64,000 nucleotides of DNA. Source: Azospirillum brasilense. GTDB lineage: Bacteria; Pseudomonadota; Alphaproteobacteria; Azospirillales; Azospirillaceae. A program made the translations under genes and the position numbers. Below are positions 3,077 to 17,561 of the stretch, piece by piece. The notes beneath the pieces were generated by a model that saw nothing but the letters and a program-made list of their open reading frames with translations, did no database searches and was not told where the DNA came from. The stretch covers positions 434,001 to 498,000 of the forward strand of contig NZ_VITI01000002.1 of assembly GCF_007827795.1 (NCBI RefSeq), read 5' to 3'. Every line of letters starts with the position of its first letter. The first letter of the stretch is position 1.

Positions 3077-3673
3077 TCAAGTTCCCGGCATCAGCCAAGG
3101 CCGCGCTTCCTCATCCGCGCGATCGAAGGCGTCGATGGCGTCTTGGTAACGCAGCGTCAGAGCCACGTCGTCGAGGCCTTCGATCAGGCATTCCTTCTTG
3201 AACGGGTCGATGGCGAAGGGCCGCGGCTGGCCGTCCGGACCGGTTAGAGTCTGGGCCGGCAGGTCCACGGTGACGGCGGCGCCCGGCGTCTCCTGCAATT
3301 GACGGCGCAGTTCCGCCACCGTCTCTTCCGGCAGGGTGATGGTCAGCAGGCCGTTCTTGGCGGCGTTGGCGGCGAAGATGTCGCCGAAGCTGGGAGCGAC
3401 GACGCAGCGGAACCCGCCGTCCACCAGCGCGTAGACCGCCCCCTCCCGCGATGACCCGCAGCCGAAATTGCGGTCGGTCACCAGCACGCGCGCCCCGGCA
3501 TAGGCCGGGTCGTCCAGCGGAAAGCCGGGCTTGCGCTCGTCGTGAAGCAGGAAATTGCCGTAGCCGGCGCTGCGCGGCTTCTTCAGGAAGCGGGCGGGGA
3601 GCAACTGGTCGGTGTCGATGTTGGCGATGTCGAGCGGCACCGCCGGAGCGGTCAGCGTGACGAAGGGGTCCAT
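3077..3673 (-). CDS. leuD: LeuD-like small subunit of an aconitase-family hydro-lyase
   Basis: The 198-residue protein has the swivelling small-subunit fold of 3-isopropylmalate dehydratase: N-terminal LDIANIDTDQLLPARFLKK, then RNFGCGSSREGAVYALVDGG and the PFKKECLIEGLDDVALTL ending, matching bacterial LeuD in length. LeuD-type subunits supply substrate-recognition residues to a LeuC-type Fe-S subunit. It is the last gene of the 13-gene leftward operon, two bases after the leuC-like stop. Among dehydrogenase, imidase-like and lyase genes with a catabolic importer, a role in leucine synthesis is doubtful. A maleate, citraconate or dimethylmaleate hydratase is my inference; true isopropylmalate isomerase remains possible. 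Confidence 0.85.
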   Translation of the reverse strand: MDPFVTLTAPAVPLDIANIDTDQLLPARFLKKPRSAGYGNFLLHDERKPGFPLDDPAYAGARVLVTDRNFGCGSSREGAVYALVDGGFRCVVAPSFGDIFAANAAKNGLLTITLPEETVAELRRQLQETPGAAVTVDLPAQTLTGPDGQPRPFAIDPFKKECLIEGLDDVALTLRYQDAIDAFDRADEEARPWLMPGT

Positions 3674-3675
3674 CC

Positions 3676-5082
3676 TTACGAAGCTCCCAGCTTGCGGACA
3701 TCGGTGAGTTTGCCGGTCACGGCGGCGGCGGCGGCCATCGCCGGGCTCATCAGATGCGTGCGCGCGTTCGGCCCCTGCCGGCCGGGGAAGTTGCGGTTGG
3801 TGGTCGAGGCGCAGCGCTCCCCCGCCGGGACGAGGTCGCCGTTGATGCCGACGCACATCGAACAGCCGGGCTCGCCCCATTCCAGACCGGCGTCGGTGAA
3901 GACGCGGTCCAGCCCCTCCGCCTCCGCCTGACGGCGCACCGGAACCGATCCCGGAACCACCAGCCCCGGCACCATGGCGCGGCGGCCGCGCAGCACGGCG
4001 GCGGCGGCGCGCAGATCCTCCAGCCGGGCGTTGGTGCAGGACCCGATGAAGACTCGGTCGATCCCGACGTCCTCCAGCCGCGTGCCGGGGATCAGACCCA
4101 TGTAGTCGAGCATTTTGCGCATCTGGCCGGCGCGCACCGGGTCGCTCTCGGCGCCGGGATCGGGAACCGCGCCGGTGACCGGAACCGCGGTTTCCGGGCT
4201 GGTGCCCCAGGTGACGGAGGGGGCGATGACGGCGGCGTCGAGTGACACCTCGCGGTCGAAGTCGGCGTCCGGGTCGCTGGGCAGGGTCCGCCACTGCGCG
4301 ACGGCACGGTCGAACAATTCCCCCTTGGGAGCGTAATTCCGCCCCTCGATCCAGGAGAAAGTGGTGTCGTCGGGGGCGATCATGCCGGCCCGCGCCCCCG
4401 CCTCGATCGACATGTTGCAGACGGTCAGCCGGCCTTCCATCGACAGGGCGCGGATGGCGCTGCCGGCGTATTCGATGACGTGGCCGGCCGCCCCGTCGGC
4501 GCCGATGAAGCCGATCACCGCCAGGATCAGGTCCTTGGCCGTCACATGCGCGCCCAGCACCCCGTCGATGGTGACGCGCATGGTCCTGGGCCGGCGCTGC
4601 CACAGCGTCTGGGTCGCCAGCACATGCGAGACCTCGGTGGCGCCGATGCCGAAGGCGAGCGCCCCGAAGGCGCCGTGGGTGGAGGTGTGGCTGTCGCCGC
4701 AGACGATGGTCAGGCCCGGCAGAGTCAGCCCCTGTTCCGGCGCCAGCACATGAACGATGCCCTGCGCCGGGTCGTGCAGACCGAAATGGCGCAGACCGTG
4801 ACGCCCGGCGTTGGCCTCCAGCATCGTCACCATGTTGGCGATTTCGGGGTCGGCGATCGGCGTGGCGCGGCTGTGCGAGGGCACATAATGGTCGGCGACG
4901 GCGAAGGTCAGCTCCGGCCGGCGCACCGGGCGTTTGGCGTGGTCGATCATGCCGAAGGCGTGGAACGAGCCCTCGTGCAGGAAATGGCGGTCGATGGCGA
5001 GCAGTGCCTGCCCGTCCGGCCGGGTCGCCACCAGATGGGCGTCCCAGACCTTGTCGAACAGGCTGCGGGGGTGCTGCGTCAT
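3676..5082 (-). CDS. leuC: LeuC-like large subunit of an aconitase-family hydro-lyase
   Basis: This 468-residue protein has all 4Fe-4S ligands of the family: Cys349 in [10 protein letters not shown] and Cys407/Cys410 in PGCSMCVG, at the spacing of E. coli LeuC. It also carries [21 protein letters not shown]. With the LeuD-like subunit it should add or remove water on a substituted malate/maleate. Its start overlaps the FAD-dehydrogenase stop by 4 bp, so it is translationally coupled to catabolic genes instead of leuB or leuA. Substrate is inferred only; overall sequence is typical enough that isopropylmalate dehydratase is the default label. Confidence 0.88.
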
Positions 5083-6503
5083 TGGTTGCCTTCCTCCTTC
5101 ACCGAATCTGCGGCCACGGAGTCTGCGGCGGCGGCCCCGGCGATGCGCCCCAGCGCCACCGCGGTCAGCAGCCCGTTGCCGGACAGATAGCCGGACGCCT
5201 TCGCTCCCGACACGCCGCAGGCGGCCCCGCCGGCGGCGTAGAGGTTGGGCAGCGGACCACCCTGCCCGTCCAAGACGCGAGCGTCGTCATCGACAACCAG
5301 CCCGCCCTGGGTGTGGAACAGGGCGCCGGTGACTCGGACCGCACGGAAGGGTGCGACCAGCGGCGCCGAGCCGGCGAAATCCCGGCCGAAGCCATCGTTC
5401 CCCCCCTCGACCTTCAACCGGTCGACCTCGGCCAGCGTGGCGGCCAGCGCCGCCGCGTCGATCTTCAGCTGACGGGCGAGGTCCGCCGGATCGTCGGCGC
5501 CGAGCACCGCGCCCATCGCCTCGGCCTGCCGGAAATCCTCGAACTGGCGGGCGACGGCGGCGATGCGCTCGTCGAAGACGGTCCAGGCGATGCCGTCGGG
5601 CTGGCGCAGCACGACGGCGGCCTGCTCCGAATAGCCCTGCGCCTCGTTGGAGAAGCGCTTGCCCTCGGTGTTCACCTGCACGCCGCCTTCGGTGACCGTC
5701 GCCCAGGTGACGAGGATGCCGGCGGGATGGGCGACCGAGCCGTGGCCCTGGTGCCCCGACAGGTGCCGCGTCGCCGCCCCCAGCGCCTCGCCCCAGAGCA
5801 GCGCGTCGCCTTGATTGCCGGGATGGCCGAAATAGAGCGCGTCGGCCAGTTCCGGGACATGGCGCTCGACCAGGGCCCTGTTGCCGCCATAGCCGTTGCA
5901 GGCGAGGATCAGCGCCGCGCAGCCGACCCGCTCGACGCTGCCGTCGGGCCGGGTCACTTCCACGCCGCGGACACGCGGGCCTTCGGCGTAGAGCGCGGTC
6001 ACATGCGCCTCGCACAGCACGTCGATGCCGGCGGCTTCCACGGCGCCGCGCAGCCGGTCGATCAGTTCGGCCCCCGACCGGCTGGGCAGCCCGTGCATGC
6101 GCCGGGCGCTGTGGCCGGGATAGGTGAAGTTGTCGACCACCGAGAACGGCAGGCCGTAGCGGTCGGCCAACCATTCCAGCGCCGGGCCGACCGCAAGGGC
6201 GACGCGGGACACGTCCGCCGGGTCGGGCTCCCCTTTCGCCTTGGCGATGATGTCGGCGGCGAAGAGTTCCGCGCTGTCCTCGATCCCGGCGGCGCGCTGC
6301 CAGCGGGTGCCCGGCGCCGGGATCAGGCCGGCCGACAGGGCGGTGGAGCCCTGGGGCAGCGCGTCGCGCTCCAGCACCAGCACCTCCGACCCGCGCTCGT
6401 GGGCGGCGAGCGCGGCGATCATCCCGGCCGCCCCGCCGCCGATCACGACGACGGGCACCGTGAATTCGAACGTCACGCCCTCGCCGGGCAGGATGCGGCT
6501 CAT
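5079..6503 (-). CDS. FAD-dependent dehydrogenase of the fumarate reductase/succinate dehydrogenase flavoprotein family
   Basis: The 474-residue protein begins with a dinucleotide-binding fold ([10 protein letters not shown], about residues 22-31) and [15 protein letters not shown], the Ser/Thr-rich FAD phosphate loop of FrdA/SdhA-like enzymes. It ends with [16 protein letters not shown] and [18 protein letters not shown], the C-terminal FAD-binding part. A capping domain lies near 240-370. Relatives oxidise or reduce an alpha,beta C-C bond (fumarate reductase, tricarballylate dehydrogenase, ketosteroid dehydrogenase). It lacks a signal peptide and covalent-flavin motif, so it is soluble and cytoplasmic. 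It overlaps both neighbours by 4 bp. In this operon it could desaturate a succinate-type intermediate before the LeuCD-like hydratase; that step is inferred. Confidence 0.85.
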
Positions 6504-7114
6504 GGCGCGGACAGCTCCTCCAGCATCGTCGCGACCGTCGCCACGCGGCAGACCGGGCGCAGGGCGGCGACCGAGACGTCATGGACCTGCGGCGTGAAGG
6601 CGGCGCAGCCGTCCTCCAGCAGGATGGTGTCGAAGTCGCGGACATGGGCGTCGCGGACGGTGGAGGCAACGCCGCCGTTGGTGACGATGCCGCAGACCAG
6701 CAGCCGCTCCACGCCACATTTGCGCAGCACCCACTCCAGCCGCGACATGTAGAAGGCGGAATAGGCGATCTTCTCCACCTCGACATCGACGGGCTGGAGC
6801 GTGTCCACCGTGCGGTGCCCCCAGCCGCCCGGCTGGAAGTCGCCCTTGGTCAGGAAGGGACGCAGCGCCTTCAGGTGGGGGGAGATCATCGGCTCGCCGC
6901 CGCGGCCGGGAACCAGGGTGAAGTTGGTCGAGATCACCCAGCCGCCGCGCGACCGCAACAGGTCGGCCAGCGGCTTCACCCGCTCCGGCAGGGCCAGGAT
7001 TTCCGGCGCCGTCTGCCCGGCGCGGCCATAGGCCCCCTCGGCGTGCAGGAAATCGTTCTGCAGGTCGCAGACCAGCAGCGCGGTGCGCTCCATAGGAATC
7101 GCCGCGGCGCTCAT
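6500..7114 (-). CDS. Isochorismatase-fold hydrolase lacking the catalytic Cys
   Basis: The 204-residue protein has the isochorismatase/cysteine-hydrolase fold: TALLVCDLQNDF with catalytic-type Asp17, a candidate Lys115, and the C-terminal loop CGIVTNGGVASTVRDA. In amidases of this family (nicotinamidase, N-carbamoylsarcosine amidase, maleamate amidase) that loop reads T-D/N-x-C-V; here Gly148 replaces the nucleophilic Cys, as in EntB and PhzD, which cleave a vinyl ether. The usual amidase call is therefore uncertain. ATG 7112-7114 overlaps the hyuA stop by 4 bp; an upstream extension would run inside hyuA. The gene overlaps the FAD-dehydrogenase start likewise. Confidence 0.85.
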   Translation of the reverse strand: MSAAAIPMERTALLVCDLQNDFLHAEGAYGRAGQTAPEILALPERVKPLADLLRSRGGWVISTNFTLVPGRGGEPMISPHLKALRPFLTKGDFQPGGWGHRTVDTLQPVDVEVEKIAYSAFYMSRLEWVLRKCGVERLLVCGIVTNGGVASTVRDAHVRDFDTILLEDGCAAFTPQVHDVSVAALRPVCRVATVATMLEELSAP

Positions 7115-9189
7115 CGGGCGCTCCTTTCCACGATGACGTTGCCGAAGCCATCGACGCGGGCGCTCAGGTCGGGATCGATGACGGTGGTGGCGTCGGGCTG
7201 CTCCAGGATCGCCGGTCCCTGGATATGCGCGCCGACCGGCAGGTCGAGGCGGTTGTAGACCGCCGTCTCGTGCCACGCCCCGTCGAACCACACAGGCCGC
7301 GCGCCGGCACGGGCGCCCTCCACCGTCGTGCCGGCGGCCGGGGCCAGCGCGGCGAGGTCGAAATGCGGGCGACGGCCGATGGCGGCGGTGCGCAGGTTGA
7401 CGATCTTGGCGCCGACGCCCGGCAGCAGCCGGCTGAAGGACGCCTGATAGGCGCGCTCGAAGGCGGCGCGGATGGTCGCCTCGTCGATTCCGGTGGTGCC
7501 GTTCGCCACCGACAGCGGCAGCGGCACGGCGACCGTGTGGGTCTGGCCGATGTAGTGCATGTCGAGTTCGAAGACGAGGTCGATGCGCTCGACGCTGAGG
7601 CCGGCGGACTCCACGACGGCGCGGGCGGCGGTCGCCTCCTCCACCATGCGGCGGTCGAGCGACGCGGCGTCGATGCCGGCCAGCGGCAGGTTGACCGTCT
7701 GCACCTGATCGTGGCGGATGTCTGCGATGACGCAGCCGAGCGCCGAGGTCACGCCGGGGAAGCGCGGCACCAGCGCCGCCTTCAGCCCGACCTCCTTGAT
7801 CAGCGCGCCGACATGCAGCGCGCCGCCGCCGCCGAAGGGCACCGCGGCGAACTTGGCCGGGTCGTGCCCGCGCTCGATGGAGACGAGGCGGATGGCGCCA
7901 GCCATCTTGCTGTTGGCGATGCGCACCACCGCCTCCGCCGCCGCCATGACGTCGAGGCCCAGCGGCTCGGCGACGTGGGTGGCGATGGCGGTGCGGGCGG
8001 CGTCGACGTCCAGCCGGGAGAGCTTGCCGCCGATCGGCCGCTCCGCGTTGATGCGGCCGAGCAGCACGTTGGCGTCGGTCAGCGTCGGGCGGGTGTTGCC
8101 CTGGCCGTAGCAGACCGGCCCCGGCCGCGAGCCGGCGCTCTCCGGCCCGACCTGGAGCATGCCGCCAGGATCAACCCCGGCGATGGAGCCGCCGCCGGCG
8201 CCGATGGTGGTGATCTCGATCATCGGCGTGCGCACGACCAGACCGAAGTCGATGGTGGTCTGGGCGGCCAGCATGGTCTGCCCCTCCACCACCAGCGACA
8301 CGTCGAAGCTGGTGCCGCCGAGGTCGCCGGTGATGACGTTGGGGAAGCCCGCCGCCTTGGAAATCGCCGCCGCGGCGATGACGCCGGCCGCCGGTCCGGA
8401 CAGGGCGGTGCGCACCGGCAGGCGCCGCGCGGTGTCGGTGGACATGACGCCGCCGTTCGACTGCACGATGTGGAAGCGCCCGCCGAACCCTTCCCCCGCC
8501 AGCGCGTTGTCGAGCTTGGCGAGGTAGCTGCCAACCACCGGCTGGAGATAGGCGTTGAGCGCGGTGGTCGAGGTGCGCTCGAACTCGCGGATCTCCGGCA
8601 GGATGCGCGATGAGCATTCGAGGTTGGCGTTGGGCCAGACCTCGCGCGCCGCCTCCAGCGCCGCCAGCTCGTTGGCCGGGTTGGCGTAGGCGTTGATGAA
8701 GACGATGGCGAGCGCCTCCGCCCCCATCGCGGCCAGACGGCGGGCGGCGGCGCGCACCTCCTCCGGATCGACGGCGGCGCGGACGGTGCCATCGGCCAGC
8801 GTGCGCTCCGCCACCTCCAGCCGCAGATCGCGGTCGACCACGGGGACGAAGTCGCCCCACAGGCCCCAGGTCTGGCGGCGGTCGCGGCGGCGCATCTCCA
8901 GCACGTCGCGGAAGCCGGCGGTGGTGATCAGCCCGACCTTGGCGCCCTTGCGCTCCAGCAGCGCGTTGGTGCCGACCGTGGTGCCGTGGACGATGGAGCC
9001 CAACTCGGCGACCGGGCCGAAGCTCTGCAGGCCGGCGAGGAAGCCGACCGCCTCGTCGCCGCGGTTGGACGGGACCTTGGCGGTGCGGAAGCTGCCGCGC
9101 GCCTCGTCGTAATGGAACAGGTCGGTGAAGGTGCCGCCGACATCGACGCCGACGATCGCGCCACCGGGGATAGAATTGCTCGTGCTCAT
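7111..9189 (-). CDS. hyuA: Hydantoinase/oxoprolinase subunit A (HyuA family)
   Basis: This 692-residue protein opens with IVGVDVGGTFTD (about 12-23), the ATP-phosphate loop of the ASKHA-fold HyuA family, followed by VHGTTVGTNALLERKGA and, mid-protein, QSNGGVMS and TGDLGGTSFDVSLV. Hydant_A_N (about 12-185), Hydantoinase_A (about 200-490) and the C-terminal domain are all present. With HyuB it forms ATP-dependent enzymes that open cyclic amides (5-oxoproline, N-methylhydantoin, caprolactam) or carboxylate ketones (acetone, acetophenone). The start lies 19 bp after hyuB. A cyclic imide or lactam substrate is my inference from the operon. Confidence 0.92.
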   Translation of the reverse strand: MSTSNSIPGGAIVGVDVGGTFTDLFHYDEARGSFRTAKVPSNRGDEAVGFLAGLQSFGPVAELGSIVHGTTVGTNALLERKGAKVGLITTAGFRDVLEMRRRDRRQTWGLWGDFVPVVDRDLRLEVAERTLADGTVRAAVDPEEVRAAARRLAAMGAEALAIVFINAYANPANELAALEAAREVWPNANLECSSRILPEIREFERTSTTALNAYLQPVVGSYLAKLDNALAGEGFGGRFHIVQSNGGVMSTDTARRLPVRTALSGPAAGVIAAAAISKAAGFPNVITGDLGGTSFDVSLVVEGQTMLAAQTTIDFGLVVRTPMIEITTIGAGGGSIAGVDPGGMLQVGPESAGSRPGPVCYGQGNTRPTLTDANVLLGRINAERPIGGKLSRLDVDAARTAIATHVAEPLGLDVMAAAEAVVRIANSKMAGAIRLVSIERGHDPAKFAAVPFGGGGALHVGALIKEVGLKAALVPRFPGVTSALGCVIADIRHDQVQTVNLPLAGIDAASLDRRMVEEATAARAVVESAGLSVERIDLVFELDMHYIGQTHTVAVPLPLSVANGTTGIDEATIRAAFERAYQASFSRLLPGVGAKIVNLRTAAIGRRPHFDLAALAPAAGTTVEGARAGARPVWFDGAWHETAVYNRLDLPVGAHIQGPAILEQPDATTVIDPDLSARVDGFGNVIVERSAR

Positions 9190-9208
9190 GGTCTTGGTCC
9201 CGGATTCG

Positions 9209-10954
9209 TCAGGCGGCTGGGGATTCGCGGAGCGCCGCGGTGGCAGCGACGTCGAGCGTGCCGTCGTCGGTCAGCGCCACGCCGTAGGCGCTGCGCGCGG
9301 CCTCGGCGCCGAGATAGCCGAGCCGCACGTCGCGGGCCACGGCCACGGCGTCGCGGCGGAACGGGTCGCCCCAGCCGCCGCCGCCGGGCGTCTCCAGCCG
9401 CACGCGCTGGCCGTCGCGGACCTTCACGTCGGTGACCTTGGAGGCAAGCGGCGGCGACTTTTCGCCCTCATCGCTCTGCCACGTGAAGCGGTTCAGCGCG
9501 GCGGGCGTGCCGCCGGCCACCCCGAAGGGCGCGAAGACGCCGCGCTCGCCCAGCAGGAAGACGTCGGCGGCGGTCAGCGCCTCGATCTCGTAGACGGCGC
9601 CCAGCCCGCCGCGGTGCAGGCCGGCCCCGGCGGAATCCGGGCGCAGTGCCCATTGGGTGAACATCACCGGATAGGCGGCTTCGAGGATTTCCACCGGCGG
9701 GATGGTGGCGGTGGAGATCGGGTTGTTCGCGTGGTTCAGCCCATCGCTCTCCGGGTTGCCGCCCAGGCCGCCGCCGAAGAAGGAGAACATGACCCAGCGC
9801 GAGCCGTCCTGGCGGTGGCCGGCCAACGACAGCGCGTTGATGGTGCCGAAGGGGGCGGCGGTGGCGCGGGACGGGTCAGCCAGGGCCAGCGCGCCGAACA
9901 CCACGCCGATGACGCGCAGGATGGTCTCGGTGTAGCCGCCGACCGGCTTGGGCGGCTTCACCGCCAGCAGCGTCGTCTCGGGGATGACGAAGGTGATCGG
10001 GTTGAGGCAGCCGGCGTTGGCCGGCACGTCGGTGAAGACATGCTTCAGCGCGACGTAGCAGCAGGCCACCGCCGTGGAATAGGCGATGTTGAGCGGCCCG
10101 GCGCAGGGTGCGGCGGAGCGGGAGAAATCCAGCACCATACGGTCGCCCGCGATGGTCAGGTCGAGCGCGATCCGCAGCTTCTCCGACGTGATGCCGTCGT
10201 TATCGAGATAATCCTCGAAGCTGTAGGTGCCGTCGGGCAGCTTGGACAGGGCGCTGCGCATCAGCGCCTCGGCCCGCGCGGTGAAGGCGTCGAAGGCGGC
10301 GGCGACAGTGTCCTCGCCATGCTCGTCCAGCAGTTCGGTCAGGCGGCGCACGCCGAGGTCGAGCGCGTTGAGCTGCCCGTTCAGGTCGCCGTAGTTGGAC
10401 ACCGGCACGCGGGAATTGGCGGCGAGGATCGCCAGCAGGTCGTGGTTCATCACCCCGGCCTTGACCAGCTTCACCGGCGGGATGCGCACGCCCTCCTGGA
10501 AGCTGTCGGTGGCCCGCGCGTTGAAGTTGCCCGGCACGTTGCCGCCGATGTCGAGCCAGTGGCCGACCGACGCCATCCAGCAGAACAGCCGGCCCTGGCG
10601 GAAGATCGGCCGCACCAGCCGGAAGTCGTTCAGATGGGTGCCGCCGTCGTAGGGGTCGTTGAACAGGAAGATGTCGTCGGGGTACAGGTCGCCCTCCCGC
10701 GCCACCTTGTCGATCACCGCCTTGACCGCAAAGGCCATGGCGCCAACGAAGATCGGCAGGCCGTTGGTGCCCTGGACCAGGGTCGCGCCGGTCTCGGCGT
10801 GGTAGAGGCCATGGCAGGCGTCGCGTGCCTCGGCGATGATCGGGTTGAAGGCGGAGCGGTAGAGCGTCGCGTCCATCTCGTCGGCGATCTGCTCCAGCCG
10901 GCCCTTGAGGACGGCCAGCGTGACGGGGTCGATTGTGGTTTTCTGAATGGTCAT
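9209..10954 (-). CDS. hyuB: Hydantoinase/oxoprolinase subunit B (HyuB family)
   Basis: The 581-residue protein has the HyuB hallmarks DPVTLAVLKGRLEQIADEM near the start, then ATLYRSAFNPIIAE, DIFLFNDPYDGGTHLNDF and the C-terminal RLETPGGGGWGDPFRRD. It is the catalytic partner of HyuA in heteromeric ATP-dependent hydantoinases, 5-oxoprolinases and acetone-type carboxylases. Length is normal (about 520-600). The ATG at 10952-10954 overlaps the stop of the upstream lyase gene by 4 bp. No acetone-carboxylase gamma subunit is nearby, which favours a cyclic-amide hydrolase over a carboxylase, though weakly. Confidence 0.92.
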   Translation of the reverse strand: MTIQKTTIDPVTLAVLKGRLEQIADEMDATLYRSAFNPIIAEARDACHGLYHAETGATLVQGTNGLPIFVGAMAFAVKAVIDKVAREGDLYPDDIFLFNDPYDGGTHLNDFRLVRPIFRQGRLFCWMASVGHWLDIGGNVPGNFNARATDSFQEGVRIPPVKLVKAGVMNHDLLAILAANSRVPVSNYGDLNGQLNALDLGVRRLTELLDEHGEDTVAAAFDAFTARAEALMRSALSKLPDGTYSFEDYLDNDGITSEKLRIALDLTIAGDRMVLDFSRSAAPCAGPLNIAYSTAVACCYVALKHVFTDVPANAGCLNPITFVIPETTLLAVKPPKPVGGYTETILRVIGVVFGALALADPSRATAAPFGTINALSLAGHRQDGSRWVMFSFFGGGLGGNPESDGLNHANNPISTATIPPVEILEAAYPVMFTQWALRPDSAGAGLHRGGLGAVYEIEALTAADVFLLGERGVFAPFGVAGGTPAALNRFTWQSDEGEKSPPLASKVTDVKVRDGQRVRLETPGGGGWGDPFRRDAVAVARDVRLGYLGAEAARSAYGVALTDDGTLDVAATAALRESPAA

Positions 10955-11853
10955 GCCGCGTCCTCCCGCTTTGCGGAGGTGAAGTCCTTGTAGGTTTCGC
11001 CGAGCGCCAGCATCTCCGGCGTGCCGATGAGATCGTTCAGCGCGTTGAAGTCGAACATGCGGTCGCGGAAGGGCTGGGTGGTGCCGTGGGCAGCCAGCGA
11101 GGCGTAATAGTCCTGCGCCTGCCGGGCCAGCGCCCGCACGATGCCGCCGGGGAAGATCACCAGCCGGTAGCCGAGATCGCCGAGGTCGGCGGCGGAGCTG
11201 ATCGGCGTCTGCCCGCCCTCCACCATGTTCGCCAGCAGCGGGCGGATGCCGCCGAGATCGGTGGCGATGGCGGAGAGCTGCTCGCGGCTCTTCGGCGCCT
11301 CGACGAACAGCACGTCGGCGCCGGCCTCGACATAGAGGCGGGCGCGGTCGAGCGCCGCCGGGACGCCCTCCACCGCCACCGCGTCGGTGCGGGCGATGAT
11401 CAGCGTGCCTTCGCTGGTCCGGGCGTCGACCGCCGCCTTGATCTTGCCGGCCATCTCGCCGGCCGGGATCACCGCCTTGTCGGTCAGGTGGCCGCAGCGC
11501 TTGGGAAAGCTCTGGTCCTCAAGCTGCAGGGCGGTGGCGCCGGCCCGCTCGAACATGCGCACGGTGCGCTGCACGTTGAGCGCGTTGCCGTAGCCGGTGT
11601 CGGCGTCCACCACCAGCGGCGTCGGCACGCGGTCGCGCACCAGCGCGATGGTGTCCGCCACCTCGCTGACCGAGACCAGCCCAATGTCGGGCCGCCCGAG
11701 CCGGGTGTAGGCGATGGCGGCCCCCGACAGATACAGCGCCTCGAACCCCGCCGCCGCCGCCAGCGAGGCGGTGAAGGCGTCGTAGACGCCGGGGGCCAGG
11801 ACGACGCGATCCTGGGCCAGTCGGTCCCGGAAACTCATGCTGGGGACGGTCAT
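10951..11853 (-). CDS. Isocitrate lyase/PEP mutase superfamily lyase (methylisocitrate- or dimethylmalate-lyase type)
   Basis: This 300-residue TIM-barrel protein starts FRDRLAQDRVVLAPGVYDAF and carries VVDADTGYGN (metal-binding Asp83/Asp85), LEDQSFPKRCGH at 111-122 with catalytic-type Cys120, and IIARTDA. The KRCGH loop marks C-C lyases that split 2-substituted malates or isocitrates (methylisocitrate lyase, 2,3-dimethylmalate lyase), as opposed to phosphonomutases. ATG 11853 has GGGGGAG at good spacing; the frame is open to 11952 but without support. It is coupled to hyuB by a 4-bp overlap and follows livF by 95 bp. It probably yields pyruvate or glyoxylate as the final pathway step. Confidence 0.88.
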   Translation of the reverse strand: MTVPSMSFRDRLAQDRVVLAPGVYDAFTASLAAAAGFEALYLSGAAIAYTRLGRPDIGLVSVSEVADTIALVRDRVPTPLVVDADTGYGNALNVQRTVRMFERAGATALQLEDQSFPKRCGHLTDKAVIPAGEMAGKIKAAVDARTSEGTLIIARTDAVAVEGVPAALDRARLYVEAGADVLFVEAPKSREQLSAIATDLGGIRPLLANMVEGGQTPISSAADLGDLGYRLVIFPGGIVRALARQAQDYYASLAAHGTTQPFRDRMFDFNALNDLIGTPEMLALGETYKDFTSAKREDAA

Positions 11854-11948
11854 GTCAAGCGCTCCCCCCGGTACCGGTCCGCGAAGCCGTCGCAGCACCA
11901 CCGGGTCAGGGTTGAGAGATGTCGGGACAGGGCCGGAGCACGCATCGC

Positions 11949-12662
11949 TCACAGCCCCAGATAGGTGCGTTTCAATTCGGGGTCGCGCGCGATCTCGTCG
12001 GAAGGTCCCGACAGCGCGAAGACGCCGTTTTCGAGGATGTAGGCGCGGCGGGCGACCTCCAGCGACTGGACGACGTTCTGTTCGACCAGCAGGATCGCCA
12101 GCCCGTCCGCATTCAGCTTGCGGATCAGCCCGAACATCTCCTCCACCACCAGCGGCGACAGGCCGAGCGACGGCTCGTCGAGGATCAGCAGGAGCGGTTC
12201 GGCCATCAGGCCGCGCCCGATGGCGAGCATCTGCTGCTCGCCGCCCGACAGCGTGCCGGCAAGCTGGCCCTCGCGCTCCTTCAGGCGGGGGAAGGTCGTG
12301 AAGATGCGCTCCAGGTTCCGCGCCCGGTTCGGCTTGCCGCGCCGGTAGCTTCCCAGCTCCAGATTCTCGCGGATCGACAGGTTGGGGAAGATCTTGCGGC
12401 CTTCCGGCACCTGGATCAGCCCCTCCTCCACGATGCGCGCGGCGGAGCGGCCGTCGATGCGGCTGCCGGCGAAGCGGATCTCGCCCTCCCAGGGCGGCAG
12501 CACGCCCGACAACACCTTGTTCAGCGTCGTCTTGCCGACGCCGTTGGAGCCGAGGACCGTGACGATCTCGCCGTCCAGCACGGCCATGTCGATGCCGCGC
12601 AGCACCTCGGTGGCGCCGTAGCCAGTCTTCAGCCCCTGGATGCTCAGAAGCGCCTCAGCCAT
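11949..12662 (-). CDS. livF: Branched-chain-type ABC importer ATPase (LivF-like)
   Basis: This 237-residue ABC ATPase has Walker A GSNGVGKTT, Q-loop LIQVPEGRKIFPNLS, signature TLSGGEQQMLAIGRGL, Walker B LLLILDEPSLGLSP and H-loop/switch region LLVEQNV, ending in the short LivF form. LivF pairs with LivG on the LivHM permease to drive uptake of branched-chain amino acids or other carboxylates and amides. It overlaps the livG stop by 8 bp. LIV-type systems linked to catabolic genes often carry other substrates; here the probable substrate is that of the downstream enzymes. Confidence 0.93.
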   Translation of the reverse strand: MAEALLSIQGLKTGYGATEVLRGIDMAVLDGEIVTVLGSNGVGKTTLNKVLSGVLPPWEGEIRFAGSRIDGRSAARIVEEGLIQVPEGRKIFPNLSIRENLELGSYRRGKPNRARNLERIFTTFPRLKEREGQLAGTLSGGEQQMLAIGRGLMAEPLLLILDEPSLGLSPLVVEEMFGLIRKLNADGLAILLVEQNVVQSLEVARRAYILENGVFALSGPSDEIARDPELKRTYLGL

Positions 12663-13401
12663 GGGCCGCCCCCTCGGCCGCCAGACGGGCGGCGGCGCCG
12701 TGGCCGAGATAGGCCTCGATCACGCGGGGGTCGGCGCAGACGGCGGCCGGCCTGCCCTCGGCGATCATGCGGCCCTGCGCCAGCACATAGACGCGCTCGC
12801 ACAGGTTCATCACCGCCTGCATGACGTGTTCGATCATCAGGATCGTCACCCCTTCGTCGCGGATGCCCCGGATCACCGGGATGATGTCGCGGATCTCCGA
12901 CGGGTTCAGGCCGGCCAACACCTCGTCCAGCAGCAAAAGCTTCGGCTCGGTGGCGAGCGCGCGGGCCAGCTCCAGCCGCTTGCGCCCGGCCACCGTCAGG
13001 CCGCCGGCCGGCCGGTCCAGCTCGGCCGCCAGCCCGACGCGGCGGGCCACCTCGCGCGCCTTGGCGATGGCGTCGGCGCGCCTGGCGTGGCGCAGATAGG
13101 CGCCGACCGCGATGTTCTCGCACACCGTCAGCCCGGCGAAGGGCTGGACGATCTGGAAGGTGCGGCCGATGCCGCGTTCGGCGCGGCGGTGCGGCTCCTC
13201 GCCGGTGATGTCGGTGCCCTCAAACAGAATCCGCCCGTCGCTCGGTGCGACGAAGCCGGAGATCATCGAGAACAGCGTGGTCTTGCCGGCGCCGTTCGGC
13301 CCGATCAGGCCCACGATGCCGCCCGGCTCCAGCGCGAGCGACGCGTTGTCCACCGCCATCAGCCCGCCGAAGCGCTTGGACACGGACTCAACGGCCAGCA
13401 T
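12655..13401 (-). CDS. livG: Branched-chain-type ABC importer ATPase (LivG-like)
   Basis: The 248-residue ATPase begins MLAVESVSKRFGGL and carries Walker A GPNGAGKTT, a LivG-type insertion with IGRTFQIVQPFAGL, signature-region VAGRKRLELARALA and Walker B LLLLDEVLAGLNPSE, followed by MIEHVMQ. The signature is degenerate (LTVAGRKR rather than LSGGQ), as in many LivG proteins. The ATG at 13399-13401 lies inside the end of livM (14-bp overlap), showing translational coupling. An upstream in-frame start would extend deeper into livM and is less likely. Confidence 0.93.
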   Translation of the reverse strand: MLAVESVSKRFGGLMAVDNASLALEPGGIVGLIGPNGAGKTTLFSMISGFVAPSDGRILFEGTDITGEEPHRRAERGIGRTFQIVQPFAGLTVCENIAVGAYLRHARRADAIAKAREVARRVGLAAELDRPAGGLTVAGRKRLELARALATEPKLLLLDEVLAGLNPSEIRDIIPVIRGIRDEGVTILMIEHVMQAVMNLCERVYVLAQGRMIAEGRPAAVCADPRVIEAYLGHGAAARLAAEGAAHG

Positions 13402-14386
13402 GGGACACCTCCTTGGCGCCGCGCGCCACCAGCCCGCGCCCACGGTCGCGCAGCCGCTCCAGCAGGCCCAGGATGCCGCCGCGGGCGAAGGCGACGGCCA
13501 GCACCAGCACGCTGCCGAAGACGATCAGGTCGATGCCGGGGATGCGTCCGGCGAACTGCTTGGCGAGTTCGCCCAGCCCGTGCAGGGTCAGGGCGCCCAC
13601 CACCGGCCCGAAGACGGTGCCGACGCCGCCGATGATCGGGGCGAGCAGCAGCTCCACCGAGATCCAGCTGCCGTAGGCGATGTGGGCGTCGATGTAGAGG
13701 AAATACTGGGCGTAGAGGCAGCCGGACAGCGCCGTCACCGCGCCCGACAGGGCAATGGCGCGCAGCTTCACCTTCAGGGAATCGACGCCCAGCGCCTTGG
13801 CCGCGTCCTCGTTCTCGCGCACCGCGACGAGCTGCGCACCGAAGCGGGAGCGCTGGATCCAGCGCGTCAGCAGCAGCACGCCGGTGACGAAGGCCAGGAC
13901 CAGCCAGTAGAAGACGGCGCGGTCGGCGAATTGCAGGTTGGCGGGGTGGACCTCCAGCTTGATCAGCAGGCCGGCGGCGCCGCCGGTGACGGGCGTCGCG
14001 TTGGCGAGGATGCGGAACACCTCGGCGAAGGCCAGCGTCACCAGCGCGAAGTAGGACCCGCGCAGGCCGGAGCGGAAGCTGAGGAAACCGATGGCCCAGG
14101 CGACCGCCGCCCCCGCCGCCGCCGCCAGCAGCAGACCGGCCCAGGCGTTGACGCCGTAGCGCATCTGCAGGATCGCCGTCACATAGGCGCCCGTGCCGAA
14201 GAAGGCGGCATGGCCGAAGCTGAACTGGCCGCCGAAGCCGCCCAGGATGTTCCAGCCCTGCGCGCCCAGCGCCACGATCAGCGTGAAGACGAGGAAGTTC
14301 ATCACCGGGCTGGACGTCACCACCAGCGGCAGCAGCGCGGCAAGGACAGCCAGGACGGCGATCGGGATCAGGTCGCGCGCGGTCAT
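13388..14386 (-). CDS. livM: Branched-chain-type ABC importer permease (LivM-like)
   Basis: The 332-residue protein has eight to ten hydrophobic helices and the LivM signature NILGGFGGQFSFGHAAFFGTGAY near residue 50, given here only as the recognised region, plus RFGAQLVAVRENEDAAKALG, the cytoplasmic coupling loop. It ends in a charged tail after GGILGLLERL. It forms the inner-membrane channel with LivH. ATG 14384-14386 overlaps the livH stop by 4 bp. The frame continues open far upstream, but that extension is antisense-like low-complexity sequence inside livH. Confidence 0.92.
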   Translation of the reverse strand: MTARDLIPIAVLAVLAALLPLVVTSSPVMNFLVFTLIVALGAQGWNILGGFGGQFSFGHAAFFGTGAYVTAILQMRYGVNAWAGLLLAAAAGAAVAWAIGFLSFRSGLRGSYFALVTLAFAEVFRILANATPVTGGAAGLLIKLEVHPANLQFADRAVFYWLVLAFVTGVLLLTRWIQRSRFGAQLVAVRENEDAAKALGVDSLKVKLRAIALSGAVTALSGCLYAQYFLYIDAHIAYGSWISVELLLAPIIGGVGTVFGPVVGALTLHGLGELAKQFAGRIPGIDLIVFGSVLVLAVAFARGGILGLLERLRDRGRGLVARGAKEVSHAGR

Positions 14387-15255
14387 GCCTTGGCTCCGAA
14401 CAGGCCGGTCGGCCGCACCAGCAGCACGGCGATGAAGATCAGGAAGATGCCGATCTGCCCCAGGCTGTCGCCCAGGAACAGGCCGCACAGGCTCTCCACC
14501 ACGCCGATGAACAGGCCGCCCAGCAGCGCGCCGGGGAGCGACCCCATGCCGCCCAGCACCACGACCGTGAAGGCGACCAGCACGAAGGCGCTGCCGATGC
14601 GCGGGTTCACGTAGAAGGTCGGCATCAGCAGCCCAGCGGCCACGGCGAGGCAGGCGCAGCCCAGCCCGAAGGTGATGGCGTAGACGTGCGGCACGTCGAT
14701 GCCGACCAGATTGGCGCCCAGCTTCTCCTTGGCGACGGCGCGGATGGCCTTGCCGGTGTCGGTGCGGTTCAGCACCAGCCAGAGCAGCCCGGTCACCACC
14801 ACCGCCACCGCCAGCCCGATCACCCGCGGGAAGGACAGCAGCAGCGGCCCCAGCGCGACCACCTGGAACGAGTAATCGGTGTCGAGCGTGCGGGTGTCCG
14901 ACTGGAAGACCGCCAGCAGCACATTCTCCAGCACGATCGACAGGCCGAGCGTGACCAGCAGAATGTTGCCATCGTCGCCGTGGCTGGCCGGCCCGATGAC
15001 GAAGCGCTGCAGCCCGTAGCCCAGCACGAACATCAGCGGCACCAGCGGCACGATCACCAGATAGGGGTCGAGGCCCAGCCACGCCCAGGCGATCCACACC
15101 GCGAACATCGCGCAGGTCAGCAGCGCGCCGTGCGCGAAGTTGATGATGTGGAGCACGCCGTAGATCAGCGTCAGGCCGAGGGCGATCAGCGCGTAGACCG
15201 CGCCGGTCATCAGCCCGTTCAGCGCCGCTTCCAGGATGATCTGAGGTGAATACAT
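14383..15255 (-). CDS. livH: Branched-chain-type ABC importer permease (LivH-like)
   Basis: This 290-residue inner-membrane permease has about eight hydrophobic segments and LivH motifs: NGLMTGAVYALIALGLTLIYGVL region near the N-terminus, NFAHGALL, GKAIRAVAKEKLGANLVGI (coupling loop) and GGMGSLPGALLGG. It pairs with LivM. The gene starts 109 bp after the binding-protein stop; that gap contains a hairpin listed separately. The motifs and length (E. coli LivH 308) make the assignment safe; substrate is unknown. Confidence 0.92.
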   Translation of the reverse strand: MYSPQIILEAALNGLMTGAVYALIALGLTLIYGVLHIINFAHGALLTCAMFAVWIAWAWLGLDPYLVIVPLVPLMFVLGYGLQRFVIGPASHGDDGNILLVTLGLSIVLENVLLAVFQSDTRTLDTDYSFQVVALGPLLLSFPRVIGLAVAVVVTGLLWLVLNRTDTGKAIRAVAKEKLGANLVGIDVPHVYAITFGLGCACLAVAAGLLMPTFYVNPRIGSAFVLVAFTVVVLGGMGSLPGALLGGLFIGVVESLCGLFLGDSLGQIGIFLIFIAVLLVRPTGLFGAKA

Positions 15256-15287
15256 GGCAGCCCGCGCATGAGGGGAGCGATCCCCCT

Positions 15288-15327
15288 ACCCGTCCGGGAG
15301 GCCGATGCGCGGCGCCTCGGGACGGGT
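15288..15327 (-). repeat. Hairpin between binding-protein and livH genes
   Basis: ACCCGTCC (15288-15295) pairs with GGACGGGT (15320-15327), and inside it GAGGC (15298-15302) pairs with GCCTC (15314-15318). It occupies the 109-bp gap after the periplasmic binding-protein stop. Its place suggests an mRNA-stabilising or attenuating hairpin that favours high binding-protein expression over the membrane subunits. Two other ABC operons here have a hairpin at the same position. Confidence 0.6.
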
Positions 15328-15364
15328 GAGGGAAATGCGGGAGGTGCGGAGGCGGACGGACCGG

Positions 15365-16609
15365 TCACGCCGCCGGGAAGTTGACCTTCGCTTCCGCGAC
15401 GGATTCGGGGAAGATCACCTTGATGTCCTCGCCCTGGATCTGCGTGTTGATCGGGGTGGCGCCCTCGTTCTGGCCGTTCACGAACTTCGTCGGGCCGTAG
15501 GGCATGATGTGACCGGCGAAGGTGGAGGCGTTCAGCGCCTCGATGATCGTCTTGCGGTCGGCGGAGCCGGCGCGCTCGATGGCGTCGGCCAGCAGAAGCA
15601 GGTTCGAATAGTTCAGCGGAACATTGTAGGCGAAGGACTTGCCCTGCCCCTCCACCGCCTTGCGCAGCGCCAGCGCCTTCGGATTCTTCGGGTCGTGCCA
15701 GTGGTTGCAGTCGATGACGTTCTGGGCCGCCTGCGGGAATTCCTTGACGAAGCGCCCGTTCGACGCCGCCCCGCCCAGCACCGCGTAGACGCCCTTCGGC
15801 TTGATGCGCTGCTGCTGCATGGTGCGGGCGAGCAGAACGAACTCGCCGTAGTAGTTGGACGGGATGACGAGATCCGGGTTCAGCGAGCGGATGCGCAGCG
15901 CCACGTTGGACATGTCGCGCGCCGGGGTCGGATGGGCGATGGTCTCCAGGATCTCGAAGCCGCGCTTGGGCAGTTCAGCCTGCAGCAGCTTGGCGAGGCC
16001 GGAGCCGAACAGGCCGTCCTCGTGCACCAGCACGACGGTCTTGGCCGGCTTGCCGGCCAACTCGTTGATCCTGGTCAGGTTGTCGAGCGCGACCTGGGTG
16101 ACCTTGCCGAAGCCGGGGCTGAAGCGGAAGGTGTTGGTCAGGCCCCGCGCCATGATCTGGTCCGACACGCCGACATCGACCAGATAGGGCAGATCGTAGC
16201 GCGCCGCGGCCTGCGAGGCGGCGAGGCAGATCGGGCTGGCGAAGCCGCCGACGATAGCGCACACGCCCTCGGCCTGCATGCGCTCGACCTCCTGCGTGCC
16301 GGCCTCCGGCGTGGAGCGGGCATCGCCGAACACCATCTCGATCCTGGCGCCGCCCAGCGACTTGATGCCGCCCGCGGCGTTGATCTCGTTGATCGCCATC
16401 TCGGCGCCGAGCCGGCCGAGGTCGCCGTCATGGGCGAGCGCGCCGGTCACCGGCTGGAGGATGCCGATCTTCACGGCCGGGGTCTGCGCCCGCAGAATAG
16501 ACGGGGCGGCCACCGGCACCGTCGCGAAGGTGGCGGCCGCGGCGCCCGCCTTGAGCACCGTGCGGCGGGAGATGCCGAAGGGTGCGGAGTCCTGAACCGA
16601 ACGTCCCAT
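15365..16609 (-). CDS. Tat-exported LIV-type ABC substrate-binding protein
   Basis: The 414-residue precursor starts MGRSVQDSAPFGISRRTVLK; the twin-arginine pair, hydrophobic AGAAAATFATVPVAA and ILRAQ mark a Tat signal peptide. The mature part is a type I periplasmic binding fold (Peripla_BP_6): VKIGILQPVTGALAHDG, ALDNLTRINELAGKPAKT, FAYNVPLNYSNLLLLADAI. ATG 16609 is preceded by GAGGAG at 9 nt, better than the TTG at 16618 that overlaps the regulator gene. It captures the operon's substrate and hands it to LivHM. First structural gene after the GntR-type regulator. Confidence 0.93.
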   Translation of the reverse strand: MGRSVQDSAPFGISRRTVLKAGAAAATFATVPVAAPSILRAQTPAVKIGILQPVTGALAHDGDLGRLGAEMAINEINAAGGIKSLGGARIEMVFGDARSTPEAGTQEVERMQAEGVCAIVGGFASPICLAASQAAARYDLPYLVDVGVSDQIMARGLTNTFRFSPGFGKVTQVALDNLTRINELAGKPAKTVVLVHEDGLFGSGLAKLLQAELPKRGFEILETIAHPTPARDMSNVALRIRSLNPDLVIPSNYYGEFVLLARTMQQQRIKPKGVYAVLGGAASNGRFVKEFPQAAQNVIDCNHWHDPKNPKALALRKAVEGQGKSFAYNVPLNYSNLLLLADAIERAGSADRKTIIEALNASTFAGHIMPYGPTKFVNGQNEGATPINTQIQGEDIKVIFPESVAEAKVNFPAA

Positions 16610-16614
16610 AACGC

Positions 16615-17484
16615 TCAACTCCTCTGCTTGATGGCCCGCGAGCCGCGGGTGGGCTTTTCGCCCGCATTGTTCTTGTCGGTGTTGGCTTTGTCGGCCTTGG
16701 TTTTGTTGGGGGCGCGCGGCCGACCCAGCGCCGGGCTCCAGCGCCGTTCCCCGTCATCGCCGATGCGCACGAGATCCATGTGAAAGCTGTAGCGGTCGGG
16801 CCGGTACAGCGCGTGCAGATGCTCCACCCCGCGGCCGGACGGGTCGTGCACGACGCGGGTCAGGGTCAACAGCGGCGAGCCGATCTCCAGATCCAGCGCC
16901 GCCGCCGGCTCCGGACCGGCCAGCGTGGCGTTGATCGCCTGGGTCGCCCGCTCGGTCTTCACGCCCGACCGCTCGATCAGCTCCAGCAGCGGGCGCGCCG
17001 CCAGCTCCGCTTCCGAATAGGTCAGGCCGAGCCATTCCGGCACATGGGTGGTCAGGTAGGAGAAGGGCTCCCCGTCGATCAGCCGGACACGCACCGACCG
17101 CTGGACCCGCTCGCCCGGCTTCAGCCCCAGGCTTTCGGCGATCGCCTCCGGCGGCGCGACATAGCCGAAGGAGAGCAGCTTCACGTCGGTGCTGCGCCCC
17201 ATGTCGATCAGGTGCGACAGCACGTTGGAGAGGTCGGCGACGATCGGACGGACGCTGCGGGTGTCATGGACGAAGGTGCCGGAGCCGGCCTTGCGCTGCA
17301 CCAGCCCTTCCTTCTCCAGCAGGTCGAGCGCCCGGCGCACGGTCACCCGCGACACCGCGTGTTCGGCGGCCAGCGCCGGCTCCCCCGGCAGCCGGCAGCC
17401 CGGCGGCAGGTCGCCGGCGACGATGCGGTCGCGCAGCAGCAGATAAATCCTACGCGCCTTCAGGGGTTCGACCGCCGACTTCAC
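16615..17484 (-). CDS. GntR/HutC-family transcriptional regulator
   Basis: This 289-residue regulator has an N-terminal winged helix (about 8-75: ARRIYLLLRDRIVAGDLPPG, SRVTVRRALDLLEKEGLVQR) and a C-terminal UTRA ligand domain (about 95-240: PGERVQRSVRVRLIDGEPFSYL). After about residue 250 comes an unusual basic tail (NKTKADKANTDKNNAGEKPT) of no known function. The start is GTG 17482-17484. It leads its own operon, with two palindromes 34-77 bp upstream on a predicted promoter, so autoregulation and induction by the imported substrate or a metabolite are likely. The stop sits just before the next gene's ATG. Confidence 0.93.
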   Translation of the reverse strand: MKSAVEPLKARRIYLLLRDRIVAGDLPPGCRLPGEPALAAEHAVSRVTVRRALDLLEKEGLVQRKAGSGTFVHDTRSVRPIVADLSNVLSHLIDMGRSTDVKLLSFGYVAPPEAIAESLGLKPGERVQRSVRVRLIDGEPFSYLTTHVPEWLGLTYSEAELAARPLLELIERSGVKTERATQAINATLAGPEPAAALDLEIGSPLLTLTRVVHDPSGRGVEHLHALYRPDRYSFHMDLVRIGDDGERRWSPALGRPRAPNKTKADKANTDKNNAGEKPTRGSRAIKQRS

Positions 17485-17517: not shown

Positions 17518-17538
17518 TCTGTCTTTGCACCAGACAGA
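17518..17538. promoter_or_regulatory. Putative GntR operator 1
   Basis: TCTGTC (17518-17523) and GACAGA (17533-17538) form a perfect 6-bp inverted repeat with a 9-bp spacer. It lies between the predicted -10 box and the regulator's GTG start, where a bound repressor would block transcription. Operator 2 is about 24 bp away, centre to centre. Confidence 0.55.
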
Positions 17539-17541
17539 AAC

Positions 17542-17561
17542 CTGTATGATCTATGATACAG
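17542..17561. promoter_or_regulatory. Putative GntR operator 2
   Basis: CTGTAT (17542-17547) and ATACAG (17556-17561) form a perfect inverted repeat around 8 bp. GTAT/ATAC arms are common in HutC-type operators. It covers the predicted -10 hexamer and most of the spacer of the operon promoter. Confidence 0.6.

Follow-up and report, generated by a model that had tools for sequence, protein, structure and literature searches.

A candidate imide-to-glutarate catabolic operon in Azospirillum brasilense and related Alphaproteobacteria

We analysed a 64,000-nucleotide stretch of Azospirillum brasilense DNA (the window: contig NZ_VITI01000002.1, positions 434,001 to 498,000; contig C2 of genome G000 in our numbering). 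It carries an operon of 13 intact minus-strand frames that run leftward from a GntR regulator at 17484 down to a LeuD-type gene at 3077, as an earlier note on this DNA had described. Besides the regulator and a Liv-type importer, the operon encodes a C–C lyase of the PEPM/ICL family, the two subunits of a ring-opening amidohydrolase (HyuA and HyuB), an isochorismatase-fold protein (IsoH), an enzyme dependent on flavin adenine dinucleotide (FAD) and a LeuCD pair. Judging from the sequences, the operon may well be a catabolic route from an imide to glutarate, a reading to which we give about even weight. With equal confidence, we suggest that the substrate under GntR control would be a substituted cyclic imide with a carboxyethyl (propionate) side chain.

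The core of the unit, consisting of the lyase, HyuB, HyuA and IsoH, recurs across the Alphaproteobacteria, with the FAD enzyme and LeuCD as modules separable from it. We examined 115 loci, the best 80 of 160 relatives plus 35 more, of which 113 hold IsoH. The loci were found by IsoH and are not independent, and many come from Azospirillum or are related in other ways; several contigs are incomplete, and genes come from a simple codon-usage caller with identity thresholds of our own setting, with misses and mislabels possible. Together with IsoH we detected HyuA in 110 of the 113 loci, HyuB in 108, the lyase in 95, the FAD enzyme in 74 and LivH in 69. This co-occurrence of core genes is not due to chance. 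The conserved unit posited earlier thus stands for the core and not for the exact 13-gene set, which is not conserved as a whole beyond Azospirillum. We encountered the operon-end order FAD-LeuC-LeuD solely in Azospirillum and in L195, a genome that has an MmgE/PrpD gene as well. The closest named matches of the window's genome are from Azospirillum, several of them on large plasmids. IsoH is present in 30/82 genomes of the order, 26/385 of the class and 8/398 drawn from the phylum, the window's genome being counted in each tally; only one of the latter lies outside the class. This sole outside relative, G802 (L189, L200), has a full cluster, with one TGA codon in its IsoH match. We found no paper describing the gene set in the open-licence literature.

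Glutarate, with a 2-oxo acid beside it, is suggested by genes for glutaryl-coenzyme A (CoA) dehydrogenase (GcdH) and/or a CoA-transferase (CaiB), which three lineages carry within or next to the cluster. The gene order in Tistrella (L126, a plasmid record, and L159, genome G242) is HyuB-HyuA-IsoH-GcdH-CaiB-LeuC-LeuD. G326 (L158) has the order LeuD-LeuC-CaiB-IsoH-HyuA-HyuB with GntR and the lyase divergent, and its CaiB has a 4-bp overlap with both LeuC and IsoH. The Rhizobium mayense cluster (L080) is followed downstream, on the same strand, by a LysR-like fragment, GcdH, CaiB and two more genes, which by eye resemble 3-hydroxyacyl-CoA dehydrogenase and EtfB. The GcdH of Tistrella L126 matches the solved glutaryl-CoA dehydrogenase 1sir at 619.9 bits over residues 6–394 of 395; with NCBIfam NF045552 it stays under the cut-off (214.8 vs 470), and it gets slightly higher scores from other acyl-CoA models. 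The L126 CaiB is nearest to the succinate–glutarate CoA-transferase model NF052585, the best of 7 models. With genome sizes of 5.5 or 4 Mb, one gene pair in each genome and loci treated as independent, the chance expectation of glutarate genes in these stretches is 0.39–0.54, compared with the three lineages seen (P 0.008–0.018). GcdH is commoner in IsoH-positive genomes (23/26 vs 194/359, Fisher P 0.0004, genome size uncontrolled), both searches being taken as the same 385 genomes, and in the window's genome GcdH and a CoA-transferase are adjacent on contig C18. With glutarate genes at the cluster in three lineages, we consider glutarate more probable as a product than the "short acid" of the earlier note.

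Three genomes (G242, G339 and G114) are here called Tistrella-like for a GcdH 99–100% identical to that of the Tistrella plasmid record. Each has a second GcdH elsewhere, as well as an operon-type lyase (76–77%; next paralogue 46–47%), and in the mapped Tistrella-like loci L219 and L220 this lyase lies with GntR, Liv genes, MmgE and a FAD gene in a second cluster. These genomes bear on a rival explanation, in which glutarate comes directly from a six-membered ring of the glutarimide or valerolactam type opened by HyuAB, and LeuCD and the lyase, controlled by the same regulator, act on a different substrate. Such a scheme would fit the position of the glutarate genes beside HyuAB and IsoH, as well as the caprolactamase models that are nearest to HyuAB. 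We nevertheless regard it as highly improbable: the lyase (95/113 loci) and a hydratase (71/90) are too constant for bystanders, and the Tistrella-like genomes keep the lyase orthologue.

According to the proposed imide-to-glutarate route, the imide would be imported by the Liv transporter and, if its ring is saturated, converted to a maleimide by the FAD enzyme, acting on a neutral carbonyl and not on a dicarboxylate. HyuAB would open the ring, probably consuming ATP, to give a substituted maleamate. IsoH, which has no catalytic cysteine, could then aid the release of ammonia to yield a homoaconitate-like tricarboxylate, perhaps with the neighbouring carboxylate of a dialkylmaleamate as the nucleophile, via an anhydride; a dialkylmaleamate supplying its own nucleophile would let IsoH dispense with the cysteine. 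The tricarboxylate would be hydrated by LeuCD (in relatives, by a HacA/DmdAB-type LeuCD or by MmgE/PrpD) to an alkyl-homoisocitrate, and the PrpB-like lyase would cleave the latter into glutarate and a 2-oxo acid, which would be pyruvate where methyl is the second substituent. Glutarate would enter metabolism via a CoA-transferase of the succinate–glutarate type and glutaryl-CoA dehydrogenase. The outline drawn in the earlier note (a conserved catabolic unit with a hydratase and a lyase) survives in this scheme; the roles of IsoH and the FAD enzyme and the product differ.

A lyase of this family could release glutarate only from a 3-(2-carboxyethyl)malate, and with methyl as the other substituent the matching imide would be hematinic acid (3-carboxyethyl-4-methylmaleimide), a fragment of heme, bilins and chlorophyll. 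The ring-opened acid of hematinic acid would be 2-methylhomoaconitate, and its hydration and lysis would produce pyruvate and glutarate; the sum balances as C8H9NO4 + 3 H2O = C3H4O3 + C5H8O4 + NH3. We propose hematinic acid as the substrate tentatively. With similar reserve, the operon might mineralise tetrapyrrole monopyrroles more broadly, taking in hematinic acid and also, with the help of the FAD enzyme, dihydrohematinic acid, which derives from chlorophyll's reduced ring. One paper reports the occurrence of hematinic acid and maleimides in senescent leaves and lake sediments (PMC7318184). We found no bacterial route from tetrapyrrole fragments to central metabolism in the open-licence literature. 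A recurrent alphaproteobacterial operon with a definite predicted product would make the fate of such fragments testable in a plant-associated soil bacterium.

The lyase (10951..11853, as all genes of the operon on the minus strand) matches PF13714 with 151.4 bits. Its nearest model is PrpB (TIGR02317, 292.8 bits), whose cut-off of 354.4 is not reached. The KRCGH motif given in the earlier note is confirmed in its relatives: Lys, Cys, Gly and His are kept in 98/98 lyases and Arg in 97/98, with Lys in the remaining one. The lyase also matches the solved dimethylmalate lyase 3fa3 and the petal death protein 1zlp. These matches, and the type-2 small subunits that match the LeuD/DmdB model, could also belong to the breakdown of a small alkyl imide such as dimethylmaleimide, ethylmethylmaleimide or methylsuccinimide, in which an alkylmaleate is hydrated and cleaved by the same enzyme families as in the dimethylmaleate hydratase and dimethylmalate lyase steps of nicotinate fermentation. 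The products would be pyruvate or 2-oxobutyrate plus acetate, propionate or butyrate, the generic version of which was given in the earlier note. This explanation leaves the glutarate genes unaccounted for, and we consider it unlikely, both in its substrates and in its products.

Phe186 of E. coli PrpB, which we take to be part of the methyl pocket, is kept in 98/98 lyases and favours pyruvate over glyoxylate as the co-product. The same residue, the PrpB model itself and the PrpD-family gene in 42/113 loci would suit an imide of 2-methyl-cis-aconitate, a tricarboxylate one carbon shorter, which would pass through 2-methylisocitrate to pyruvate and succinate in the style of the methylcitrate cycle. 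In the PLSAF stretch of PrpB, however, the lyases have Gly for Leu237 in 92/98 cases and for Ser238 in 96/98, which could mean a larger pocket. Together with the missed PrpB cut-off and the glutarate genes, for which this shorter skeleton offers no explanation, the substitutions make it quite improbable; moreover, we know of no natural imide with that skeleton.

The ring-opening enzyme is encoded by HyuB (9209..10954; PF02538, 578.6 bits) and HyuA (7111..9189; PF01968, PF05378 and PF19278), the latter of the ATP-using type, so that the domains of both subunits are present. Both are below the equivalog cut-offs of caprolactamase CapAB (HyuA 518/1000 with the alpha model, HyuB 305/1000 with the beta model), and the best solved match of HyuB is the N-methylhydantoinase 7hk5. 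HyuAB and isochorismatase-fold genes co-occur in the use of creatinine and hydantoin. This background, the 7hk5 match and the pairs of PF01177 racemase-family genes in 6/113 loci would agree with a hydantoin route, where HyuAB opens a substituted hydantoin, IsoH strips the carbamoyl group and the FAD enzyme oxidises the amino acid. However, IsoH does not have the cysteine of N-carbamoyl amidohydrolases, and the hydratases and the malate-type lyase would be left without a role; of the explanations considered, we find this one the least probable.

IsoH (6500..7114) contains the isochorismatase domain PF00857 (129.3 bits vs a cut-off of 27). At the position of the catalytic Cys it has Gly148, and Gly is found there in 82/82 and in 113/113 homologues. 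Gly148 aligns to the Cys of 6xix and to the Ser that replaces Cys in the RutB chain 8bll. The E. coli YecD chain 1j2r likewise has Gly at this position, so members without the cysteine also exist outside this operon. Asp17 and Lys115 of the Asp-Lys-Cys triad are kept in 82/82 IsoH sequences. None of the cysteines is invariant; Cys170 is kept in 78/82, and its place is also occupied by Cys in 6xix, alongside the catalytic one. Without the Cys of the amidohydrolases, the isochorismatase-fold protein departs from the interpretation in the earlier note as worded, and we rejected the role of an ordinary cysteine half-amidase on the same grounds. The comparison draws attention to a family of isochorismatase-fold proteins lacking the expected nucleophile. 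The best NCBIfam match of IsoH is the YecD model PRK11440, far under its cut-off (67.9 vs 195). In L092 (8–11 kb) IsoH is found without HyuAB, beside LeuCD on the opposite strand, and by eye the locus also holds a maleate-isomerase-like and a LigB-type dioxygenase-like gene; the Cys-less protein may serve another route there.

The FAD enzyme (5079..6503; PF00890) belongs to the flavocytochrome c/3-ketosteroid dehydrogenase superfamily. It aligns well with Shewanella flavocytochrome c, and it scores 243.1 with the flavocytochrome c model (cut-off 285.45). Tyr291 stands at the catalytic Arg of fumarate reductases (Tyr in 52/53 relatives), and Ala436 at the C-terminal substrate-binding Arg, by a 3-residue insert (Ala in 40/53); we take these to be Arg402 and Arg544 of flavocytochrome c. 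Chain 1jrz also has Tyr at the catalytic position and is presumably the R402Y mutant. Trp267 takes the place of the Glu following the active-site Thr of flavocytochrome c. The active-site histidines, which we take to be 365 and 504 in the same numbering, are kept as His254 (52/53) and His397 (53/53). With the two arginines replaced, we rejected a classical succinate desaturase, and with it falls the earlier note's FrdA-like desaturase; from the replaced arginines and retained histidines we infer a neutral carbonyl substrate instead of a dicarboxylate. The active site of 3-ketosteroid dehydrogenases includes Tyr-x-Ser near the C-terminus. Near the C-terminus of the FAD enzyme lies GYLSGNG, with Tyr439 kept in 53/53 and Ser441 in 48/53 relatives; no residue alignment to 3-ketosteroid dehydrogenases was obtained. 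The presumed likeness of GYLSG to these dehydrogenases was not confirmed by a search with the C-terminal piece, which gave 39.8 bits with flavocytochromes vs 24.6 at best with 3-ketosteroid dehydrogenases.

The proposed hydratase consists of a LeuC-type aconitase-family large subunit (3676..5082; PF00330) and a LeuD-type small subunit (3077..3673; PF00694). LeuC passes NF009116 (725.4 vs 531) and TIGR00170 (663.8 vs 560.25), and LeuD passes NF002458 (227.2 vs 167) and TIGR00171 (173.6 vs 116.25). Contig C4 of the genome carries a further leuC (69% to E. coli LeuC and 59% to that of the window), and contig C1 a further leuD (51% to E. coli LeuD). We therefore rejected the operon pair as the genome's only isopropylmalate isomerase, a finding that would have counted against the catabolic role in the earlier note. 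Most operon LeuCs checked are nearer to the window's LeuC (0.61–0.68, vs 0.84 for the housekeeping LeuC); L125 is not (0.88).

The hydratase step itself holds up across the relatives, where three kinds of aconitase-family or PrpD-family enzymes fill the slot: LeuC-type LeuCD (type 1, the window's type; LeuC in 42 of the 113 loci), homoaconitase/DmdAB-type LeuCD (type 2; 15) and MmgE/PrpD (42). One metabolic step would thus be served by differing hydratases. At least one kind is present in 71 of the 90 loci with enough flank, for which IsoH had to lie >8.5 kb from the left end of the stretch and >3.5 kb from its right end, irrespective of operon direction. Among these 90 loci, LeuC types 1 and 2 never occur together, and type 1 and MmgE do so in 18. 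Of the 42 loci having MmgE, 41 place it immediately ahead of the lyase, and type-2 LeuCD has this position in 13/15; the type-2 small subunits score 160.3 vs 108.95 with the LeuD/DmdB model. Type-1 LeuCD forms the operon end in Azospirillum and L195, is on the opposite strand in L070, L081, L085, L097, L099, L127 and, with a tripartite ATP-independent periplasmic (TRAP) transporter, Sulfitobacter L124/L125, and stands beside the core genes in other orders in L077, L086, L126 and L158. MmgE/PrpD is part of the unit in many relatives (42/113 loci), which is invisible from the window alone: MmgE is absent from its operon, and the three PF03972 genes of the genome are just ~30% identical to the operon type. 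In the near-identical Azospirillum relatives L036–L040 an MmgE/PrpD gene lies at the place of the 95-bp gap between LivF and the lyase (11854–11948). L128 (A. oryzae) also has no MmgE there, and its gap is of similar length.

Several observations weigh against the imide-to-glutarate route. Glutarate genes were found near just 4/113 loci, in three lineages (GcdH in 3, CaiB in 4); in R. mayense the LysR-like fragment separates them from the cluster, and the Tistrella cluster itself has no lyase. The CaiB assignment falls short of the NF052585 cut-off (533.1 vs 750 bits), and 4ed9 and 10uh, which carry other names, match CaiB better than does the succinate–hydroxymethylglutarate CoA-transferase 9br6. 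No GcdH reached the cut-off in three IsoH-positive genomes, G310 (100% complete), G393 (97%) and G431 (86%). The route also asks for a Cys-less hydrolase to complete an amide hydrolysis. The NCBIfam name for the LeuCD pair is isopropylmalate dehydratase, and in a LeuC tree rooted on type 2 the housekeeping LeuCs join next to the branch of Azospirillum and L195; the type-1 operon LeuCs do not form one clade in this tree. Finally, 19 of the 90 loci with enough flank show no hydratase.

The "mostly 4-bp overlaps" reported earlier were a generous description: with the chosen starts, 5/12 junctions overlap by exactly 4 bp, and the remaining 7 comprise overlaps of 8 and 14 bp and gaps of 2, 5, 19, 95 and 109 bp. 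We scanned 9 of the 13 proteins against Pfam and NCBIfam, and all 9 match the stated families. The first gene encodes a GntR/UTRA (HutC-type) transcriptional regulator (16615..17484), above the cut-offs of PF00392 and PF07702 and below the NCBIfam equivalog cut-offs. Two inverted repeats before it are possible operators: TCTGTCT-N7-AGACAGA (17518..17538) and CTGTAT-N8-ATACAG (17542..17561). Of the eight upstream regions read (window, L060, L081, L127, L128, L158, L219 and L220), the CTGTCT/AGACAG repeat is also found in L158, with a related GCTGTC/GACAGC repeat in L127; the CTGTAT-N8-ATACAG repeat is the same in L128 and has its arms in reversed order in L219 and L220. L060 and L081 have no such inverted repeat. 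By eye, the gene flanking the operon on the left, on the opposite strand, encodes a GGDEF-type response regulator; the one flanking it on the right is dCTP-deaminase-like.

The importer comprises a LivK-like periplasmic substrate-binding protein (15365..16609; PF13458, 163.5 bits) with a probable twin-arginine translocation (Tat) signal, to which the TAT_signal model gives a weak score (20.3 vs a cut-off of 22.7), the permeases LivH (14383..15255) and LivM (13388..14386) and the ATPases LivG (12655..13401) and LivF (11949..12662). The names of the last four come from their sequences and from annotated relatives. Elsewhere, other importers replace or join Liv: TRAP DctPQM in L124, L125 and L199, an ATP-binding cassette system of the polar-amino-acid type in L106, L109 and L155, and, adjoining LeuCD, a TctC-type binding protein in L127.

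Additional genes accompany the cluster in some relatives. Tandem PF01177 genes of the Asp/Glu/hydantoin racemase family adjoin it in L065, L074, L076, L080, L084, L090, L219 and L220; by eye, their usual racemase cysteines appear to be replaced, and several of these loci add a small tautomerase-like gene and a second FAD gene, ~50% identical. An old-yellow-enzyme-like gene of L219 was rejected as a member of the unit, its best other matches being just 33–42% (L115, L085, L081). The molybdenum hydroxylase-like gene in L075 was considered as a lead to an N-heterocycle and set aside.

Four known systems come closest to the proposed imide-to-glutarate route. It shares with the methylcitrate cycle a PrpB-like lyase, which in many relatives immediately follows a PrpD-family gene or an aconitase-family pair. 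However, the operon unit has no citrate synthase, includes nitrogen-ring enzymes and has a lyase under the PrpB cut-off, and its proposed product is glutarate, whereas the methylcitrate cycle yields succinate. The end steps of nicotinate fermentation are catalysed by the dimethylmaleate hydratase DmdAB and dimethylmalate lyase. There too a LeuCD-type hydratase is followed by a lyase of the PEPM/ICL type, and the type-2 relatives have a DmdB-type small subunit; the operon differs in its entry by HyuAB and IsoH, its transporter and its larger proposed skeleton. With HyuAB-based catabolism of cyclic imides and lactams (caprolactamase, N-methylhydantoinase) it has in common the HyuAB families, which provide the best model and structure matches, but its HyuAB is well under the caprolactamase cut-offs and is joined to a hydratase and a C–C lyase. 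Known glutarate catabolism follows lysine breakdown. The likeness to it lies in genes within or next to the cluster: GcdH and the CoA-transferase in Tistrella and R. mayense, and the transferase alone in G326; the operon version would differ in taking the product of the lyase.

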